A stretch of DNA of 45,182 nt, from the NCBI GenBank assembly GCA_017421325.1, contig JAFOJO010000016.1, forward strand, positions 1 to 45,182, read 5' to 3'. This stretch comes from Candidatus Saccharimonadota bacterium (GTDB lineage: Bacteria; Patescibacteriota; Saccharimonadia; Saccharimonadales; Saccharimonadaceae). Below the pieces are notes generated by a model that ran no database searches, had not been told where the DNA came from, and saw nothing but the letters and a program-made list of their open reading frames with translations. Shown here one piece after another: positions 5,717 to 14,830 of the stretch. The number at the start of each line of letters is the position of its first letter. Position 1 is the first letter of the stretch. Position numbers and translations under genes: made by a program.

Positions 5717-6856
5717 ATGGGAAATATTGAGTATTTAATAGTAGGAGCGGGGATATTTGGAGCGACAGTAGCTGAAAGATTGGCTAGCGCTGGGAAGAAA
5801 GTGTTGGTGATAGATAGGCGAGAACATTTGGCTGGGAATATATATTCTTATACTGATGAAGAAACTGGAATAGAAGTGCATGAGTATGGTTCGCATATTT
5901 TTCATACAGAAATGGATGAGGTGTGGGACTATATTACAAAATTTATAGATTTTAATGACTATGTACATACGGTAAATACGCGTCATAATGGTAAATTGTA
6001 TCCGATGCCAATTAATTTGGATACAATTAATTTGTTGTATGGCACGGATATGTCGGCAGAGGAAGCAGAAAGATTTGTGGCAGAGGAAGCAAGGCGAGAT
6101 AGTGAAAAATATGGAATTAAAGACCCGCAGAATTTTGAAGAAAAAGGAATAAGTTTGGTGGGAGAAAAGTTATACGATGCATTTTTGAAGAATTATACAG
6201 AGAAACAATGGCATACGTCGGCGAAAAATCTTTCAGCAGATATACTGAAGCGAATACCAGTAAGATTTTCGCATGACAATCGGTATTTTATGACAGCCAA
6301 ACACCAAGGGATACCTTGTGGTGGATATACCAAGATGGTGGAGAAAATGCTTGAATCAGATAATATAGAGGTTCGGTTGGGGGTAGATTTTAAGGATATT
6401 GAAAAAGATTTGCCAGAGAGTGTGAAAATTATATATTGTGGGCAGGTGGATGAACTGTTGGATTATGAACTAGGCGTGTTGCCATATAGGTCACTAAGAT
6501 TTGAGGAAGAGCGAACGGAAAATGGATTAGATGAGGCAGTAATAAATGAGGCCGACAAGGATGTGCCATATACTAGAGCGCATGATTATAAGTATTATCA
6601 GATTGACCAGCCGGAAGTAATTGAACAGAAGATATCGATTGTGGCGAGAGAATATCCGGCAGATTTTGAAAAGGGCGGGGAAGCATACTATCCGGTAAAT
6701 AGTGAAGAATCGGCAAGGTTATATGATAAATATGTAGCGTTGGCGAAGGAAAGGTATCCTAATTTGATTTTGGGTGGAAGGCTTGGAGCGTATCAATATT
6801 GGGATATGGATAAAGCGATTAAGAATGCGTTAGATTTGTCTAGTACTTTAAGATAA
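5717..6856 (+). CDS. glf: UDP-galactopyranose mutase
   Basis: This flavoenzyme converts UDP-galactopyranose to UDP-galactofuranose, the donor for galactofuranose-containing glycans. The 379-residue protein has the FAD-binding dinucleotide motif VGAGIFGATVAERL at the N-terminus and IDRREHLAGNIYSY just after it. Further family signatures are EYGSHIFHT near residue 55, NYTEKQW near 155 and RYPNLILGGRLGAYQYWDMD near the C-terminus. The flavin-contacting RLGAYQYWDMD region is intact. A GGAG site lies six bases before the ATG. Its end overlaps the convergent licC-like gene by nine bases. galE at 14888 could supply the UDP-galactose it needs. Confidence 0.95.
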   Translation: MGNIEYLIVGAGIFGATVAERLASAGKKVLVIDRREHLAGNIYSYTDEETGIEVHEYGSHIFHTEMDEVWDYITKFIDFNDYVHTVNTRHNGKLYPMPINLDTINLLYGTDMSAEEAERFVAEEARRDSEKYGIKDPQNFEEKGISLVGEKLYDAFLKNYTEKQWHTSAKNLSADILKRIPVRFSHDNRYFMTAKHQGIPCGGYTKMVEKMLESDNIEVRLGVDFKDIEKDLPESVKIIYCGQVDELLDYELGVLPYRSLRFEEERTENGLDEAVINEADKDVPYTRAHDYKYYQIDQPEVIEQKISIVAREYPADFEKGGEAYYPVNSEESARLYDKYVALAKERYPNLILGGRLGAYQYWDMDKAIKNALDLSSTLR

Positions 6857-7585
6857 GAATTTTAATTTTTCTGCATTTTTTAGGTCGTCTTTGTTGTCTA
6901 TCTCATACCAGTCTTTGGGGTCGATTTTGATGGTAGCCATACTATCGGTTTTGATTTCGCTGATAAGTCGGAAAACTTGTTCATAGTATTCGTTTGCGCC
7001 AAAAATTTTTAAGAAGAATTCTAGAAATGGGATTAGATAATTATTAGAGTAATCTTTATTGATTTTGTAGATATTTACTGTTTTAAATAATTCATTTTTG
7101 TTTTCACTATCTATGTATTGCTTTGGTATAAAACGGGTAATTTTTTCATTATTATTTATTTTTACGGTAGTTCCATCCATCCATGAATCATATTTACTGA
7201 TAACTGCCGTTGTATCAGGTTGCTTAGATAGATTAGGTAGTATGTTGTTGTTAAAAATTAAGTCTGATTCTAATAGTATGGCGTCTTCTTTTTTTAGGTA
7301 GTTTTTTGATAGATAGAGGGAATATATATTATTGGTTGAATTGTAGATTTCGTTTTCTATGAATATAATTGGAGTTTTTATATTTAGTGATTTGATATAT
7401 GGCTCTAGTACATCTTTTAAATAGCCATCAACTACAATGATTCTGGAGAGGTTTAGTATATCGAGTTGTTTTAATTGTCTTTCTACGATAGTGCGGTTTT
7501 TAACTATGACCATACACTTTGGCTTTTTTTGAGTAATTTCTTTCAGTCTAGTGCCCATACCGGCTGCTAAGATGATTGCTTGCAT
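6848..7585 (-). CDS. licC: LicC-like nucleotidyltransferase (probable choline-phosphate cytidylyltransferase)
   Basis: This 245-residue nucleotidyltransferase opens with AIILAAGMGTRLKEIT, the nucleotide-binding loop of the sugar-1-phosphate and choline-phosphate cytidylyltransferase family. It is followed by KPKCMVIV and, near residue 105, LLESDLIFN, where the acidic residues bind metal. Nine bases separate it from a LicD-family gene, and this pairing is what suggests CDP-choline synthesis rather than a plain sugar nucleotide. No LicA kinase or LicB transporter is in the window, so the source of phosphocholine is unknown. A generic NTP-transferase for another alditol or sugar phosphate remains possible. 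Confidence 0.75.
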   Translation of the reverse strand: MQAIILAAGMGTRLKEITQKKPKCMVIVKNRTIVERQLKQLDILNLSRIIVVDGYLKDVLEPYIKSLNIKTPIIFIENEIYNSTNNIYSLYLSKNYLKKEDAILLESDLIFNNNILPNLSKQPDTTAVISKYDSWMDGTTVKINNNEKITRFIPKQYIDSENKNELFKTVNIYKINKDYSNNYLIPFLEFFLKIFGANEYYEQVFRLISEIKTDSMATIKIDPKDWYEIDNKDDLKNAEKLKFLS

Positions 7586-7594
7586 ATCGTCCTT

Positions 7595-8647
7595 TCATAT
7601 GATCTTATTATTTTGGATAATTTCTTCAATTTTCATTATGGTAAAAGTGTTTATGCGTGATTCAATGTCTTTGTGTTTTTGGTCGATATCGCTTGGGAAG
7701 GCAAAATAATCGCCGTAGTATTTTTCTAGTAAAGTATGAATGTTATTTGGTATTGGAACTTGGATGTCCAAGAACTTTATTTTTCGTAGAGGAAAAATAT
7801 CATTATAATCAAGTATATAAGTTCTTTCATATCTGGGAGATTCGGGACTATGTATTATCGTAGATTTTATTTTGTTTGCTTGTTCTGCGGTGATATCTTT
7901 GTCGCATACTTCATGATAGTAATGTTTGCGTATTTCTTTTAGTGTTGGTGAGACTATGACGCTTTCTTGAAGGAAGAGTTTTTCCCAATTAAACTTTATT
8001 ATGGAATTGTAATTTATTACTTTTTGTTTTAGGATTTGTTTACCCTCTTTATTCAGGTTTTTATCATAAAAATCTATTGGGAAAATATCTAGTTGTAGTG
8101 GTGTATTTTGATAATATATTCTAATGATTTCACTTTGTTTGTAAAATAATCCAGTATTTTTAAATACGTTGTCGAATATTGAAGGTAGTAATTCGTAATA
8201 TTGCCTTGGAACGCTTATGTCTATGTCGTCATCCCATGGTATGAAATTATTATGCCTTGCAATACCTATAAGGATGCCGAAATCTAAAAAGAATTTTATT
8301 TTTTTAGAATCAAGGATTTTTGTAATTTCTTTATATAATATGAAATTGCCTTCTTGTAAAACTTTTTCGAAACCTTGGGCTTTGGGTATTTTAGTGATAT
8401 CGTGAGTGTATTTCAAGAGAGAGGTGGCATAACTAATATTTTTGTTTTGTAAATCTAGATTTTGTTGAATAGTTTGTTGAATAGTTTGGAGGGTTTTTTC
8501 TAAGGTGAGCAATTTTTCTGTTGTTTGATTTTGTGTTTCTTTTATGTTTAGTTCTTCAGCATGGATTTTTTCTAATTGGTGGGTAAGTTCATCGATTTTT
8601 AGTATTTTGCTGTAGCTTTCTTTGGCAATGTTGACTGGGCTTTTCAT
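7595..8647 (-). CDS. licD: LicD-family phosphotransferase with N-terminal coiled coil
   Basis: LicD proteins transfer phosphocholine, or related phospho-groups, from a CDP-activated donor to glycans. In this 350-residue protein the family core lies in residues about 95-330: FFLDFGILIGIARHNNFIPW followed directly by DDDIDISV, the characteristic acidic motif. Residues 1-85 are rich in Leu, Gln, Lys and Glu and look like a coiled coil, a feature not needed for catalysis and perhaps used for oligomerisation. It lies one base from the ABC ATPase upstream and nine bases from the licC-like gene downstream. With those neighbours it most likely decorates the exported or nascent polymer. Confidence 0.82.
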   Translation of the reverse strand: MKSPVNIAKESYSKILKIDELTHQLEKIHAEELNIKETQNQTTEKLLTLEKTLQTIQQTIQQNLDLQNKNISYATSLLKYTHDITKIPKAQGFEKVLQEGNFILYKEITKILDSKKIKFFLDFGILIGIARHNNFIPWDDDIDISVPRQYYELLPSIFDNVFKNTGLFYKQSEIIRIYYQNTPLQLDIFPIDFYDKNLNKEGKQILKQKVINYNSIIKFNWEKLFLQESVIVSPTLKEIRKHYYHEVCDKDITAEQANKIKSTIIHSPESPRYERTYILDYNDIFPLRKIKFLDIQVPIPNNIHTLLEKYYGDYFAFPSDIDQKHKDIESRINTFTIMKIEEIIQNNKII

Positions 8648-8648
8648 G

Positions 8649-9425
8649 TTAGCTCCATAAGTTTTTATAAGCTTTGGCGACAGTTTTGGGGGTACCGTCT
8701 AGAGTGATTTTGCCGTTTTCTATAAGGATGGCCCGATCGCAGAACTTAGTGATATTTTCCATAGAGTGGGTAACTAGGATGACTGTTTGATTGCCATGTA
8801 AAGATTTAAAATAATTATTACATTTTTGTTGGAAAGCAGCATCGCCAACGGCGAGGACTTCGTCTAGTAATAGGATGTCTCCTTTGGCGCGAATGGCAAT
8901 AGAGAAGGCTAGACGGACTTGCATACCGGAGGAGTAATTTTTTAATTTTTGATTTTGGAATTGCTCTAATTCAGCAAATTTCCAGATTTCATCGTACATT
9001 GTATCTACTTCTTTGTTGGAAAAACCGAGCATAGCACCATTAAGGTAAACATTTTCGCGACCAGTAAGCTCTGGATTGAAGCCGACGCCAAGCTCTATGA
9101 AAGGGATGAGATTGCCATCTATGATGATTTCGCCTTTTTGAGGATAATAGATGCCGGCCAGGGTTTTAAGTAGAGTGGATTTACCGGAGCCATTGCGGCC
9201 GACGATGCCAACGAATTCTCCTTTTTTAACGTCGAAACTGATATCGTTGAGAACTTTTTGTTCTTTATAGCCTTTAATACCTTTGAGACGGTTGAAGAAG
9301 GCTTGCTTGAGACCAAAGGCGCGTTCGGTGGGGAGTTTGAAGCCTTTGTATAAATTTGAGACATGGATAGCTATGTCGCCATTTGTGCTAATTTCTTTTC
9401 TAGTGCCAATTTTATATTTACCCAT
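8649..9425 (-). CDS. tagH: Polysaccharide/teichoic-acid ABC exporter ATPase (Wzt/TagH type)
   Basis: This is a 258-residue nucleotide-binding subunit. Walker A is GRNGSGKST at residues 76-84, the ABC signature is YSSGMQVRLAFS near 165, and Walker B is ILLLDEVLAVGD near 185, followed by the switch histidine in VTHSM. The AVGD Walker B and the upstream region (NLYKGFKLPTERAFGLKQAF) are typical of the TagH/Wzt group that exports finished glycans. It lacks the C-terminal carbohydrate-binding extension of Wzt. Its ATG shares one base with the stop of the permease gene, so the two are coupled. It should pair with that permease to move an undecaprenyl-linked polymer. Confidence 0.92.
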   Translation of the reverse strand: MGKYKIGTRKEISTNGDIAIHVSNLYKGFKLPTERAFGLKQAFFNRLKGIKGYKEQKVLNDISFDVKKGEFVGIVGRNGSGKSTLLKTLAGIYYPQKGEIIIDGNLIPFIELGVGFNPELTGRENVYLNGAMLGFSNKEVDTMYDEIWKFAELEQFQNQKLKNYSSGMQVRLAFSIAIRAKGDILLLDEVLAVGDAAFQQKCNNYFKSLHGNQTVILVTHSMENITKFCDRAILIENGKITLDGTPKTVAKAYKNLWS

Positions 9426-10237
9426 TAGATTTCCTCTGCGAAGAACTTAGATTTTTTGCGGAAGTAAAAGGCAGCGAATATGAGGACGACAACTATAAGT
9501 ATGATAGGCAGAAATTCTAGTAGAGGGTTGCTAATATAGTTCCAGGTGGTGATGGTTTCGGGCGTGATAAGATTATGGCGGATGTCTTGGATGGCTTGGG
9601 CTATTGGGTTTAAGAGGATGACTTTAGCGGCGAGAGCGCTGCTGGCTGCTACCATAGCTACTGGATAAATGATAGGTATCGCATAGAATAAAGCTTGGAT
9701 GCAGACATCCCAAATGGATGTGATGTCGCGATATTTGACGTTGATAGCTCCAAGTAGGAAGGAAATTCCTAGAGATAAAACGTAGAGTTCTATAAGTGAT
9801 AATGGGACTAGAAACCAGGTCCAACTGAATTCTACGCCGTTAATGAGGGCGAAAATTATAATGACTACTAGATTGATAAGCATATTAATTACTGCGGTGA
9901 GGGTGGCAGAAACAACTACTATGTATTTGGGAAAGCTGATTTTACGGATTAAATCGCCGCGAGCAATCATAGCTTGAATACCTTGGGAGGTGCACTCGGT
10001 AAAAAAGCTCCACATGGTAGTACCACATAAAAGATAGACTGGATAATGAGGAATATCCCCACCAAATTTAAGAAGTTTCGCAAATACTACATAGAGGATA
10101 GCAAACATCATGAGAGGACGCAAGAGCGCCCAGAGATAACCGAGGACGGAGCCTTGATAGCGAAGTTTAAAATCTGTCTTAGTTAGTTCCGCTAAGAGAA
10201 CACGATTTTTCTTATTTAATACACGAGGTATATTCAT
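9425..10237 (-). CDS. tagG: Polysaccharide/teichoic-acid ABC exporter permease (Wzm/TagG type)
   Basis: This is a 270-residue integral membrane protein of the ABC-2 family with about six hydrophobic segments. Family features include DFKLRYQGSVLGYLWALLRP near the N-terminus and ISFLLGAINVKYRDITSIWD near residue 160. It forms the channel for export of a lipid-linked glycan together with the adjacent ATPase. A TAAAAT hexamer ends eight bases before the ATG with no ribosome-binding site, so this gene may have its own leaderless promoter within the 50-base gap behind the TagD-like gene. The polymer itself is unknown but the neighbours suggest a glycerol-phosphate type. Confidence 0.9.
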   Translation of the reverse strand: MNIPRVLNKKNRVLLAELTKTDFKLRYQGSVLGYLWALLRPLMMFAILYVVFAKLLKFGGDIPHYPVYLLCGTTMWSFFTECTSQGIQAMIARGDLIRKISFPKYIVVVSATLTAVINMLINLVVIIIFALINGVEFSWTWFLVPLSLIELYVLSLGISFLLGAINVKYRDITSIWDVCIQALFYAIPIIYPVAMVAASSALAAKVILLNPIAQAIQDIRHNLITPETITTWNYISNPLLEFLPIILIVVVLIFAAFYFRKKSKFFAEEI

Positions 10238-10287: not shown

Positions 10288-11610
10288 CTAAATAAGAATG
10301 ACACCTTTGTTTTGTTGGAATTCTTGCATAGTTTTACAGATTGTTAGTGTGATGTCATGGTCTATACGGGGAACATCTTTTTGGTCTGCGATGGCTTGCA
10401 AGAATTCTACTAATTCATAGCGGATGCCCTCACCGTCTAGCTGGTAAAAATATCTGCGATTATTGGACGGATTTTCGTAACGAAGCTCAAAATATTCGGT
10501 TTTCCACCAAGGAGCGGGGACATAGATATAGCCTTTGGTACCAGAAATGATTAATTCGCCTTCTGATTTGGCGCCTTCGGCGACAAAAATAGAAGCTACA
10601 GCCTTATCGTAGATGAAATTGATTTTAGTAAAAGTATCGCCAAGTGGTGGAGCTGTATTTTCAATATGGGAAATGATAGTTCTTTCTTTATAGTTAGTGC
10701 CAAGTATTTGGAAAATTGGCAGTAAAGCATTGGGACCCCATTCAAAAAGACTGGCATATTTACTTGGGTCGTTGCGTTTCATATTGGTGCAGGTTGATTC
10801 GATTGAAACGATGTCGCCAACTTTACCAATTTCGGCGAGTAGAGCTAAACGTTTATATGCTGTGGTGTAAGCGGTACGGATAGCTTCCATTAATACTAAG
10901 CCTTTTGTTTTGGCTAAATCGAAAAGTTCTTGACATTGTGTTTTGTCTAGACAAATTGGTGATTCGCAAAGTACGTTCTTATTGTTTTCGAGAGCTTTTT
11001 TAATATAATCATATCGTTTGTCATAACTAGTTTTTATGTAGACAGCGTCAACTTCTTTTAGGATAGAGTCGTATGATTTGTATTTTTTGATGCCGATATC
11101 TGTGTTGGCTGAACTTGGTTTTTCTGAGTAAATGCCGATGATGTTTAGGCCGTTGACGGAGTTATTTTCTTTAATGATTTTTTGAAAATAGTTGTAAGAA
11201 TCGCCTATAAGGCCAAGGTTAGTTGCTCTTTTTTCGGCGCGAATTTCTGAACTAGAAACGCCCTGGGTGCGCTCTAGGTAAGTCACTTTACAATATTTGT
11301 TAAGATAATCGAATTTGCCACGCCAGTCTGAGCCAACTGTAAAGATGTCAACATTGTATTTTTTGATATCGTCGATTTTCTGACCGTCATATTCTTCGAC
11401 AATAATCATATCGGCAAGGCCGGTAGCTTTGACGGCGGCAATGCGCTCGGCTAGGGGTTGTGCTATATTGATTTTGCCACGGACGCGATCGTAATCGTCG
11501 CTAGTGACGCCCACGATGAGGTAATCGCCAAGTGCTTTAGCGCGTTCTAATAAACGTTGGTGGCCGAAATGGAACAAATCGTATGAGCCATAAGTGATAA
11601 CTTTTTTCAT
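10288..11610 (-). CDS. Fusion: TagD-like cytidylyltransferase plus Gfo/Idh/MocA-like oxidoreductase
   Basis: Residues 1-130 form a glycerol-3-phosphate-cytidylyltransferase-like domain: VITYGSYDLFHFGHQRLLERA with the HxGH nucleotidyl-transfer motif, VGVTSDDY, and the late GVSSSEIR motif. Residues about 145-440 resemble the Gfo/Idh/MocA family, with the helix-rich region KKALENNKNVLCESPICLD. There the family's EKP lysine is replaced (ESP), and the glycine-rich NAD loop is reduced to LGLIGDS. The first domain probably makes CDP-glycerol or a related CDP-alditol. The second may produce or modify its substrate, or may have lost dehydrogenase activity. It sits between an aminotransferase and the exporter in one transcription unit. 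Confidence 0.82.
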   Translation of the reverse strand: MKKVITYGSYDLFHFGHQRLLERAKALGDYLIVGVTSDDYDRVRGKINIAQPLAERIAAVKATGLADMIIVEEYDGQKIDDIKKYNVDIFTVGSDWRGKFDYLNKYCKVTYLERTQGVSSSEIRAEKRATNLGLIGDSYNYFQKIIKENNSVNGLNIIGIYSEKPSSANTDIGIKKYKSYDSILKEVDAVYIKTSYDKRYDYIKKALENNKNVLCESPICLDKTQCQELFDLAKTKGLVLMEAIRTAYTTAYKRLALLAEIGKVGDIVSIESTCTNMKRNDPSKYASLFEWGPNALLPIFQILGTNYKERTIISHIENTAPPLGDTFTKINFIYDKAVASIFVAEGAKSEGELIISGTKGYIYVPAPWWKTEYFELRYENPSNNRRYFYQLDGEGIRYELVEFLQAIADQKDVPRIDHDITLTICKTMQEFQQNKGVILI

Positions 11611-11622
11611 TTTAAAATCTCT

Positions 11623-12681
11623 TTATTTATCAATTTCTAGTAATGCCTTAGTAAAGATTTCCATACATTCTCTGTCGCCTATGGATACGCGCAAGCAATC
11701 ACCCAGTTCACCTACATTGGGATAACTTTTGATAAGAATCTTTTTTTCTTTCTTCATGCGATTGACGATGTCGTTGGCGTTTGTCTTTGGTTTGACAAAT
11801 ATAAAATTACCAGCCTCTCCTTTACATTGGTAATTATTTTCATCCAACCATTCGATAAAATAATTTCTACCTTCATTAAAATTATTAATTAGTTTATCTA
11901 ATGTACCTGGCGTTTCTAGTACGGTTTCTGCAATTTTTAAGGCAAAGACGTTAGTATTGTGCGGTGTACATAATTTCTGTACCATTTTAATACCTTCTGG
12001 CCAACCAACCACATATCCAAGTCTACAGCCTGCCATTGAAAAGAGTTTTGAGAATGTGCGTGTAATGAAAATGTGTTCATTGTTTAATGCGTAGTTGATA
12101 AAAGTTTTCGGATAGAAATAATGGTAAGCCTCATCAATAAGGACGGTGATTTGTTTTTCTTTTGCTACCTGGAGAATTTTTTTGAGTTCATCTTCGGTGT
12201 ATGTATTACCCATGGGGTTGTTTGGGTTGAGTAATATTAGGAGTTGCGTGTCATTGGTTAGTTCATTTATGATGTTGTCTATGTTCATTTTTAGGTCGTT
12301 GTCGTAGGAAACTTTAACGAATTGTCTCCCATACATTTCTGAGTATATTTGAAACATGAAATAAGAGGGAACAACTCCTACAACGCGTCCATTTTCGCTA
12401 GTGAATGCTTCAAAAATATAGCGTATGCCTTCTGCGGAGCCATTAACTAAGCATAAATGTTCCGGAGTTGTATTTAAATGTTTGGCTAGAACTTCTGTAA
12501 AATGTTTGGTCTCTGGATATTCGGCGGCAAGTTCGGGAGTAATTTTATTTAATGCCTTTTGTAGGATTTCTTTTGGTAAACCTTTGGGGTTTTCGTTTAG
12601 GTCTAGACGGAGATAGTCACTTCTTTCATTTTGATCAAAAATTCTATTCAGATTTTTAAGCTTTGGATTGAGATAATACAT
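11623..12681 (-). CDS. PLP-dependent aminotransferase, histidinol-phosphate aminotransferase-like
   Basis: This is a 352-residue fold-type I aminotransferase. It shows LVNGSAEGIRYIFEAF (phosphate-binding turn), LLNPNNPMGN near residue 155, VLIDEAYHYF near 185 with the aspartate that contacts the pyridine nitrogen, and TRTFSKLFSMAGCRLGY near 215, where the lysine binds PLP. The overall pattern is HisC-like. No histidine genes are nearby, and CPR genomes often lack that pathway. Its place between a cytidylyltransferase fusion and a TagF fusion suggests it makes an amino-substituted building block for the polymer. The substrate is unknown. AGGGA lies a few bases upstream of the ATG. Confidence 0.85.
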   Translation of the reverse strand: MYYLNPKLKNLNRIFDQNERSDYLRLDLNENPKGLPKEILQKALNKITPELAAEYPETKHFTEVLAKHLNTTPEHLCLVNGSAEGIRYIFEAFTSENGRVVGVVPSYFMFQIYSEMYGRQFVKVSYDNDLKMNIDNIINELTNDTQLLILLNPNNPMGNTYTEDELKKILQVAKEKQITVLIDEAYHYFYPKTFINYALNNEHIFITRTFSKLFSMAGCRLGYVVGWPEGIKMVQKLCTPHNTNVFALKIAETVLETPGTLDKLINNFNEGRNYFIEWLDENNYQCKGEAGNFIFVKPKTNANDIVNRMKKEKKILIKSYPNVGELGDCLRVSIGDRECMEIFTKALLEIDK

Positions 12682-12695
12682 ATCTGGTCCCTATG

Positions 12696-12935
12696 TTATT
12701 TCTTTTTATTTTCTTTGGTTTTTTGGCTTTTTTCGCTTTTAATTTCGATTTCGTCGGATTCGACTTCTTTGTTCTTATTTTCATCGACGCCAAGTTTTTT
12801 ATTTACTTTTTTCTTAGCTTTTCTGAAATAAAGGCCAACAAATGCGCCAACGGCGATAACGATGCCGGCACCTGCCTGAATGGCATAGGTCATAACCGAT
12901 GGATCTATATAACCAAAAATTGATAATTCGTTCAT
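12696..12935 (-). CDS. Small membrane protein with YIDP motif and lysine-rich tail
   Basis: This 79-residue protein has an N-terminal FGYIDPSVMTYAIQAGAG segment that leads into one transmembrane helix (about residues 17-37). A strongly charged tail of Lys, Glu and Ser follows. Short proteins with a YIDP-plus-helix pattern are commonly found beside surface-polysaccharide genes; their function is not established. Its start overlaps the end of the YidC-TagF gene by four bases, and AGGAAG lies in front of the ATG, so it is translated with that gene. It may help place the biosynthetic enzyme at the membrane, but this is inferred from position only. Confidence 0.75.
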   Translation of the reverse strand: MNELSIFGYIDPSVMTYAIQAGAGIVIAVGAFVGLYFRKAKKKVNKKLGVDENKNKEVESDEIEIKSEKSQKTKENKKK

Positions 12936-14830
12936 TTTTTCTTCCTTTCTTTTACTTTAGTTTGAACACAATTGATGATATATTCAGCACCTATTTTTGC
13001 GCTATTACCTAGATTATACACTGAATCTTTTTTAAGGGCAGAAATTTTTTTCTGGTATTTTTTAGGGTCTTTTAGCATTTTGTCGATTACTTTATCGATA
13101 TTTTTGACGTCTTTTACTTTGACGACTTCGCCAATTTGCTCACGAGCCCAAATGTTAAATGGTTCGACTTTGATTTTTTTGTACTCTGGGTTCATGATTT
13201 TCATAGGAGTATCTATAGAGATGACTGGCTTTTCGGTGGTAAAGGCGTATTCATAGCCAATGCTGGACCAGTCGGTAATGAGGAGGTCGGCATTGAATAC
13301 TGAGCTGGTTTTTGAAAAATCGGTTTGGATTTTGATATTGGTGCCTTCGTATTTTTCCTTCATTTTTTCGAAAGCATCTTTCATATGGCGAACTTGCTGA
13401 GGATGAGGACGGACGATGACTTGATATTTTTTGCCTTTGAGAGGTTTAAGAATATTGTTTAAACATAAATCGATAATGTTGTCTTTTTGCCAAGACGGAG
13501 CAATCATGATAGTTTTTTCTTTTTGTGGTTTCTTTTTAGATTTTTTGTAATCGGAAATCATATCGTCTAGTAAAGAGTAGCCCCAATCGATAATTTTGCG
13601 ATTTTTTAGATTATAAACTTGATTGGTTTTTTCACATTCTTCGCGCTGGTGTTTGCCGGTGACGAAGACAGAGTCATAATTATCCATAGAGCCTTTACGC
13701 ATAGTTAGGTTAGGGCTGTCAATGCCGTGTGGGATATAAATATATTCGATATCTTTCCTGATATAGCTACGCTTGATGTGATAGTTGTTGATATCTGGCA
13801 TAGTCATAACTACTACATCGGCATCCATTTTCATCATGAGAGTGATTAATTTCTTTTCTTCAATGTAGTATGGTTTGATATGTTTTTCGGTTTTAGCGAG
13901 TTCGAAGATATTGTCGTTATAATCGCTGGTGATGTAGTGAATAGTGATGTTGGTGTTTTCTAAAATATATTCAATGATGCCTTTGTAATATTTATAGAAA
14001 CCATTGCTTTCGGAGTAGAAGACAAGTTTTTTGTTGGCAATAGAAAAGAATTTTTTGTAATCTTCTTTTTCTTTTTTGATTTGTTCTTTGGTGCGTTTGT
14101 GAGATTTACTGATATCTTGGAGCTCTTTGAGCTCTTTGCGAGATTCTTCGAGGGCTTTGTAATCAACATATTTTTTAGGATTGATAAAAATGTTGAGAAG
14201 CCATTGTTGAAGGATGGCCATAAGGTTGCTGGCAGTCCAATAAAGAGCAACGCCGGCGGTGACAAAGGTACCAAGGTAAACTGACAGGCCGACAGAAAGA
14301 ACAAGCATACCGTATTTGTTCCATTTGGATTGTTCGGCCTGGAGGACATTCATGATATTTTGACCAATACAAAGTGCAAGGGCGGATAGGCCGGCGATGA
14401 TAGGGATCCAGATAGCCATACCGCCGTTTTCAGAAGCAATCCAGCGGAGGTCAAAACCGAGAAAATTGTAGTCGAGATTTTCTACGCCAATATAGAGAGT
14501 AGGATTTTTGACAATTTCTACTACGCCAAGGAGGAGAATGATTTGTGCTACGAGTGGGACAAGAGAAGCAAGGGGATTATACTTGTGTTTTTTGTAGATT
14601 TTGGATTCTTCTTCGGCGATAGTGTCTTTATCGCCAAAATATTTAGCTTTGAGGCGATTGATTTCCGGTTGCATTTTGACCATTTTAATGGAATTTTTCT
14701 GAACCCAAATTGAAATAGGTAAGAGAATGATTTTGCTAACCAAGGTAAAGAGAATAATGGCGGCACCGTAATTACCAACTATGTCGTAACATAGTTTCAT
14801 AATCCAGCCAAGGAAATCAACAAAAAACAT
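12932..14830 (-). CDS. Fusion: YidC/Oxa1 membrane insertase plus TagF-like CDP-glycerol glycerophosphotransferase
   Basis: Residues 1-220 match the YidC core: GAAIILFTLVSKIILLPISI, then KMVKMQPEINRLKAKY and the helical hairpin, then three further hydrophobic segments ending in ALYWTASNLMAILQQWLLN. Lys33 is at the place of the conserved groove arginine of YidC. A charged linker (about 225-270) leads to a GT-B glycerophosphotransferase domain (about 270-620) with YIPHGIDSPNL near 390 and ITDWSSIGYEYAFTTEKPVI near 540, hallmarks of the TagB/TagF family. The catalytic domain would face the cytoplasm and polymerise or prime glycerol phosphate using CDP-glycerol. AAC-GGAG lies nine bases upstream. 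The two halves share one uninterrupted frame. Confidence 0.88.
   Translation of the reverse strand: MFFVDFLGWIMKLCYDIVGNYGAAIILFTLVSKIILLPISIWVQKNSIKMVKMQPEINRLKAKYFGDKDTIAEEESKIYKKHKYNPLASLVPLVAQIILLLGVVEIVKNPTLYIGVENLDYNFLGFDLRWIASENGGMAIWIPIIAGLSALALCIGQNIMNVLQAEQSKWNKYGMLVLSVGLSVYLGTFVTAGVALYWTASNLMAILQQWLLNIFINPKKYVDYKALEESRKELKELQDISKSHKRTKEQIKKEKEDYKKFFSIANKKLVFYSESNGFYKYYKGIIEYILENTNITIHYITSDYNDNIFELAKTEKHIKPYYIEEKKLITLMMKMDADVVVMTMPDINNYHIKRSYIRKDIEYIYIPHGIDSPNLTMRKGSMDNYDSVFVTGKHQREECEKTNQVYNLKNRKIIDWGYSLLDDMISDYKKSKKKPQKEKTIMIAPSWQKDNIIDLCLNNILKPLKGKKYQVIVRPHPQQVRHMKDAFEKMKEKYEGTNIKIQTDFSKTSSVFNADLLITDWSSIGYEYAFTTEKPVISIDTPMKIMNPEYKKIKVEPFNIWAREQIGEVVKVKDVKNIDKVIDKMLKDPKKYQKKISALKKDSVYNLGNSAKIGAEYIINCVQTKVKERKKK

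Follow-up and report, generated by a model that had tools for sequence, protein, structure and literature searches.

A YidC-TagF fusion that co-occurs with a YIDP microprotein and a membrane AlkP-type protein: a candidate headgroup-transfer machine of gut bacteria

Results

The window, a 45,182-nt stretch of DNA from a Saccharimonadota genome (contig JAFOJO010000016.1), carries a single gene whose product joins a YidC/Oxa1 core to a TagF-type GT-B domain. It lies in a locus with genes for a microprotein, an ABC exporter and putative headgroup supply (Table 1).

Table 1. Features of the window and of loci elsewhere that are discussed in the text. Positions without a prefix are those of the window; G000 is the genome of the window, and L numbers denote loci.
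Feature	Position	Strand	Remarks
YidC-TagF fusion gene	12932-14830	-	632 aa, stop-free; residues 1-222 YidC/Oxa1 core, 224-263 helical linker, 264-632 TagF-type GT-B domain (Pfam, AlphaFold model, structure comparison)
YIDP microprotein gene	12696-12935	-	79 aa; directly downstream of the fusion, 4-nt ATGA overlap
HisC/CobD-like PLP enzyme	11623-12681	-	putative headgroup supply
TagD-like cytidylyltransferase fused to Gfo/Idh/MocA oxidoreductase	10288-11610	-	putative CDP-headgroup supply
ABC-2 permease, TagG/Wzm-like polymer exporter	9425-10237	-
ABC ATPase, TagH/Wzt-like	8649-9425	-
LicD-family phosphotransferase	7595-8647	-	PF04991, E 4.2e-25
LicC-type nucleotidyltransferase	6848-7585	-	PF00483, PF12804; CDP-headgroup supply
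Stand-alone yidC	G000:C30:38457-39251		369 aa; flanked by rnpA and a jag-like gene
AlkP gene (L137)	G000:C30:42271-43011		unlinked to the fusion
Type I signal peptidase gene	L070:5672-6163		PF10502
Stand-alone TagF-domain relative	L005:1498-2649		other Patescibacteria genome
Distant YidC-AlkP protein	L133:3823-6630		further loci also seen
Distant YidC-AlkP protein	L134:3920-6685
Distant YidC-AlkP protein	L135:7-2718

Both halves of the fusion score above the curated Pfam cut-offs: PF02096 (YidC/Oxa1) covers residues 21-213 (E 1.4e-32; 113.4 bits against 35), and PF04464 (CDP-glycerol glycerophosphotransferase) covers residues 266-600 (E 5.3e-12; 45.8 bits against 22.1). Residues 1-224 of an AlphaFold model computed from an alignment of 34 relatives (mean pLDDT 87, pTM 0.70) superpose on Bacillus halodurans YidC 3wo7 (Z 18.5, 199 residues, 2.8 Å), and the C-terminal half matches Staphylococcus epidermidis TagF (Z 21.9, ~16% identity; Foldseek E 2.5e-10). 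This latter match comes from fold comparison only: a sequence search of the PDB with the C-terminal half found no TagF, and the TagF domain alone had no match to the NCBIfam TagF/TarF models at E 0.001. Since the Pfam domains and the superpositions on solved YidC and TagF structures agree, the preliminary description was right to report a complete YidC core and a TagF-like GT-B domain in one uninterrupted frame. The groove lysine that it had pointed out, K33, is likewise present, and among the matches listed it is K in 78 of 80 relatives, with R in one and a gap in another. Its retention across the family suggests that the YidC half may be capable of ordinary insertase activity. Residues of this half that are invariant in the 34 aligned relatives include S47, P92, Q96, N158, N161, Q164, Q167, Y197, W198, and N202, while the TagF half conserves the catalytic-type residues H368, R474-P-H476-P, and D520.

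When bacterial and archaeal genomes were scanned, at least 80 other loci proved to carry the fusion, 50-91% identical to that of the window and almost all matched over their full length. Because the architecture recurs at so many loci, the fusion is no artefact, and a sequencing error or a lack of the architecture in all relatives, both raised at the outset as possible refutations, is ruled out, as is a chimeric contig. Of the listed relatives, 14 are Saccharibacteria from gut or rumen and 66 are Bacillota, most of the latter from guts and belonging to Lachnospiraceae, Oscillospiraceae, Erysipelotrichaceae, and Bacilli. Their distribution is patchy. The genome of the window is the sole carrier in a set of 380 from its own phylum; among 200 Lachnospiraceae genomes, eight do, two of them (G597 and G459) counted via split matches.

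The genome of the window (861 kb, 98.5% complete) was also searched for a second yidC, and one was found in the canonical rnpA-yidC-jag setting; no PF04464 protein other than the fusion occurs in this genome. The suggestion that the cell would depend on a single YidC for both insertion and transfer is thereby contradicted, and the fusion is not the sole YidC of the cell. Another YidC is present in 25 of the 29 fusion-carrying genomes scanned. The fused YidC was the only one found in four Lachnospiraceae MAGs (G391, G392, G398, and G399, the genomes of L057, L058, L086, and L087); either these bins are incomplete or the cells rely on the fusion.

The microprotein encoded beside the fusion consists of a short N-tail, a YIDPSVMTYxIQ motif, one transmembrane helix, a basic stretch, and a conserved tail (LGVDENKNKEVESDEI). 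Such a small membrane protein had been noted here before, and the attention given to it proved justified. Seventy-nine of the 80 other listed loci have a YIDP homologue, almost always immediately beside the fusion and often with translational overlap; at the exception, L083, the sequence ends within the fusion. All 81 YIDP sequences carry the motif Y-[IVL]-D-P-S (Y, D, P, and S each 81/81), and conservation extends to T at +7 and Y at +8 (79/81 each), I at +10 (81/81), and Q at +11 (80/81). Of these sequences, 51 have, ahead of the motif, a leader that resembles a signal peptide (small residues at -1/-3), and the other 30 have only a short N-tail. Both forms would give the same product, in which the outer-face motif is followed by a single membrane helix, a basic region, and a conserved cytosolic tail (DENKNKEVESDD). 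Type I signal peptidase genes (PF10502) occur in 28 loci, for example near the microprotein gene in L070, and could be dedicated to cleavage before YIDP. The microprotein family has no Pfam model of its own and was recognised here via two specific DNA patterns.

The other partner is a membrane protein in which five predicted N-terminal helices precede a PF00884 (AlkP) domain; it is encoded in 35 of the 48 long loci. The window locus lacks it, and the single PF00884 protein of the genome (L137) is an unlinked full-length homologue; its identity to the AlkP neighbours of the fusion elsewhere is mostly 36-43%. L137 has the five long N-terminal helices, the Asp/His metal ligands, and the Thr nucleophile of membrane AlkP transferases of the EptA/LtaS type. 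Across the AlkP partners the catalytic set D211, T248, H395, and D448-H449 is invariant, PbgA/YejM and MCR-1 rank first in a Foldseek search, and LtaS and LTA primase are among the sequence matches. About 3 kb separate the L137 gene from rnpA-yidC-jag, the housekeeping locus, and coordinates suggest a similar placement in G383, G384, G387, and G389. Four of the seven Bacillota fusion genomes without a nearby AlkP gene (G393, G402, G405, and G854) had no homologue at E 1e-10. Because of these genomes and of the AlkP-free window locus, the AlkP part is perhaps replaceable; G402 carries a YidC-AlkP fusion of a second, distant kind.

Genome-wide co-occurrence of the three components extends to unlinked copies. 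The YIDP-class DNA pattern was found in 7 of the 200 Lachnospiraceae genomes, all among the eight fusion carriers, and in none of the 192 fusion-free genomes or the reversed control. The eighth carrier, G597, has a diverged copy (YIDPATTSY) adjoining the fusion, which brings the microprotein to 8 of 8 carriers against 0 of 192 others (Fisher 1.8e-14, relatedness ignored); in G543 YIDP is on a different contig from the fusion. Similarly, all 11 tested fusion-carrying Saccharibacteria possess an AlkP homologue, unlinked in six, and none of 23 fusion-free genomes of the same family does (Fisher 3.5e-9, relatedness ignored). These genomic associations make joint action of YIDP, YidC-TagF, and AlkP a well-supported proposition.

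The four modules (YIDP, TagF, YidC, and AlkP) occur in four fusion arrangements. YIDP, YidC-TagF, and AlkP are separate proteins in the genome of the window; in 11 Solobacterium/Erysipelotrichaceae loci YIDP is the N-terminal part of the AlkP protein and YidC-TagF is encoded nearby; and AlkP-YidC-TagF is a single protein of ~1180-1200 aa in L055, L078, and L082. In the fourth and distant arrangement, YIDPGTGSM and a membrane helix are fused to the TagF domain, beside a YidC-AlkP protein of 903-935 aa. The corresponding YIDPGTGS pattern gave eight matches in 200 genomes, all N-terminal in TagF-type proteins, and none in the reversed control or in 247 genomes from another class, to which G404 belongs. 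The TagF domains of the first and fourth arrangements have a common motif set (KRS, H, AP-W, RPHP, D-x-S), and on these sequence features the L133-L135 type is the same putative machine in a second, distant form. All arrangements would fit one topology, derived from the known topology of YidC and from helix counts: YIDP and YidC N-out/C-in, TagF cytosolic, and AlkP N-in with its catalytic domain outside. The position aligned to K33 is Asn in all five distant YidC-AlkP proteins, which argues against ordinary insertion there, although the positive groove residue, described as strictly conserved in YidC homologues, can be dispensable in some of them (PMC8920935).

As initially reported, TagD-like, TagG, and TagH genes are present at the window locus, the TagD-like domain (TIGR01518 E 9.7e-30, below the cut-off of that model) being fused to a Gfo/Idh oxidoreductase. 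The same TagD-like-Gfo/Idh/MocA fusion also adjoins YidC-TagF in the Bacillota loci L047 and L050, and a HisC/CobD-like PLP gene is near the fusion in 4 of the 15 Saccharibacteria loci. TagGH exporter genes accompany it in 12 of these 15 loci and are not general elsewhere, so the earlier idea that the insertase helps to assemble the exporter does not suit the family. What stays constant across phyla is YIDP, commonly with the membrane AlkP-type transferase and nucleotidyl-headgroup genes.

Nucleotidyl genes occur in 38 of the 48 long loci. The headgroup genes encode LicC-type and TagD-like enzymes, a LicC-choline-kinase-like fusion, and a LicC-CobD-like PLP fusion that probably makes CDP-ethanolamine from phosphoserine. 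PhnW, PEP mutase-cytidylyltransferase, and phosphonopyruvate decarboxylase genes are found together in four loci; the same three, as judged from sequence, lie beside the fusion in L150. In L005 the stand-alone TagF-domain relative has two neighbours, a phosphonopyruvate decarboxylase and an Fe-ADH; the latter matches a phosphonate-enzyme model best, with a score below the cut-off of that model. These neighbours suggest a hydroxyethylphosphonate donor. Gene contexts thus suggest several donors for the TagF domain, not CDP-glycerol alone. The surface-polymer setting given in the preliminary description holds, and its plain tether for glycerol-phosphate polymerisation is not supported in the form proposed, as several loci appear to make aminoethylphosphonate or CDP-choline.

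Discussion

YidC is known as a membrane-protein insertase. The fusion, its conservation, its co-occurrence with YIDP and AlkP, the shuffling of modules, and the gene contexts are observations that we read, with a probability of roughly 0.55, as follows: YidC-TagF would form the membrane and cytosolic half of a conserved machine, and the task of that machine would be to bring a small phospho- or phosphono-headgroup from a cytosolic CDP/CMP donor to a polymer outside the cell. Judging from gene content, enzymes of the locus would first make CMP-aminoethylphosphonate, CDP-choline, CDP-ethanolamine, or a CDP-glycerol-like donor. The cytosolic TagF-type domain, because of its fold and its invariant His, RPHP, and D-S residues, is then a candidate for transferring the headgroup onto an acceptor in the membrane, which may be a lipid carrier or YIDP itself. 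The YidC fold and YIDP might carry the headgroup, or its lipid, over the membrane; E. coli YidC scrambles lipids in liposomes in vitro (PMC10491306), which serves as the precedent for this step, and DltX is the precedent for a microprotein carrier (PMC12148441). Finally, the outer five-TM AlkP-superfamily enzyme would load the headgroup on its catalytic Thr and pass it onto a glycan, as its EptA/LtaS/PbgA-like fold and conserved catalytic residues suggest. The last three steps, like the substrate, the direction, and the roles of YidC and of the YIDP tyrosines, are what we infer. Several points count against the proposed machine: proteins with TagF domains usually act without any YidC, the retained K33 would be compatible with ordinary insertion, and no AlkP gene was found at the window locus or in four of the Bacillota carriers.

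In the main rival account, the YidC half is dedicated to inserting YIDP, and perhaps also AlkP, and TagF is a separate enzyme tethered beside the assembled product. Short-tailed N-out proteins such as the Pf3 coat are classic Sec-independent clients of YidC, and YIDP is N-out/C-in with a basic C-terminal flank and, in 30 of 81 sequences, a very short translocated tail. The retention of K33 and the near-obligate, often translationally overlapping adjacency of YIDP and the fusion also speak for such an insertase. Against it, the 51 YIDP proteins with a signal-peptide-like leader could use Sec, the groove residue is Asn in the five distant YidC-AlkP proteins, a resident YidC is normally present, and the fusion to both TagF and AlkP is left unexplained. 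On balance we consider this account unlikely, though deserving of serious attention. A mere membrane anchor for a polymerase of the glycerol-phosphate type, close to the tether of the preliminary description, would suit the TagF-like GT-B fold of the C-terminal half and the fact that TagF enzymes work at the membrane; it is improbable, since the invariant YidC residues of the 34 relatives exceed the needs of an anchor and a second system fuses YidC to AlkP, not to TagF. That the fusion of adjacent surface-polysaccharide genes was accidental, and that transfer spread the products without any common mechanism, as the frequent recombination of such loci and the few Lachnospiraceae carriers might invite one to think, is very hard to credit in view of four permutations of four modules and near-perfect co-occurrence.

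Each component can be set beside a known system. The TagF half resembles TagF/TarF (S. epidermidis TagF, PDB 3l7i-3l7m) in its GT-B fold, its PF04464 score over the gathering threshold, and its paired His and RPHP-type motifs; it differs in its low identity, the lack of an NCBIfam TagF/TarF match, its fusion to YidC, a family motif set of its own (KRS...H...APSW...RPHP...D-S), and nearby headgroup genes that often indicate aminoethylphosphonate or choline. The YidC half shares with B. halodurans YidC2 (PDB 3wo6/3wo7) the core fold, the groove lysine, and 24% identity over 199 residues, but unlike YidC/Oxa1 proteins it bears a C-terminal transferase domain and is an extra paralogue away from rnpA-yidC-jag. 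The AlkP partner has the five N-terminal helices, the AlkP domain, the metal Asp/His, and the nucleophile-position Thr of LtaS, EptA/MCR-1, and PbgA/YejM, whereas it forms its own sequence family and accompanies, or is fused to, YIDP and YidC.

The Dlt system (DltA/C, DltB, DltX, DltD) is alike in logic only, combining cytosolic activation, a multi-pass protein, an outer transferase, and a microprotein that has a Tyr motif at the outer face and, in some relatives, is fused to a partner. The two have no common family: YidC stands for MBOAT, AlkP for SGNH, and TagF for DltA/C, and the chemistry is phospho rather than acyl. Where the hallmark of Dlt is MBOAT (DltB) with SGNH (DltD), the multi-pass part here is PF02096 and the outer enzyme PF00884. 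A metabolic parallel exists with the PntC/LicC pathways, which also make CMP-aminoethylphosphonate or CDP-choline for surface decoration (Rice et al. 2019, PMC6697681). In that paper, phosphonate tailoring is called enigmatic in its later steps, and LicD is mentioned but not YidC-TagF; the present machine is a candidate for the missing transferase.

All parts belong to known superfamilies and headgroup transfer is a known process; the assembly including YidC was not found in the open literature. A search of open-licence papers only, and thus weak evidence of absence, returned none describing the YidC-TagF architecture. It is possible, if rather doubtful, that these loci encode a new class of envelope machine in which the YidC fold is the translocator of a headgroup, or of a lipid-headgroup, between TagF and AlkP, YIDP is a DltX-like carrier acting via its invariant Tyr/Ser/Thr residues, and the whole supplies the missing surface-transfer step for CMP-aminoethylphosphonate and similar donors. 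With YidC genetically bound to a phosphoryl-transfer pathway, movement of non-protein cargo by an Oxa1-family groove becomes testable in cells. The machine may also place aminoethylphosphonate and related zwitterionic groups on the surface glycans of gut bacteria, and surface zwitterionic headgroups are read by host immunity.

The TagF-domain tree, a quick tree with outgroups on very long branches, unites the 15 Saccharibacteria in one clade (support 100) within a well-supported clade of Bacilli and Clostridia. Because of this nesting, a single acquisition of the surface system from gut Bacillota is probable for the host-dependent gut Saccharibacteria, which retain their ordinary YidC; the direction of transfer rests on the nesting since the outgroup branches are very long. 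A search for a plasmid origin gave no plasmid match. Three unannotated human-faecal records labelled 'Bacteriophage sp.' (MT838376, MT836777, and MT836947) carry a match over 97-99% of the length of the fusion and are possibly bacterial DNA filed as phage. The Erysipelotrichaceae MAG CADABS01 (G408) carries two different YidC-TagF loci (L092/L136 and L113), each with its own YIDP-AlkP gene.
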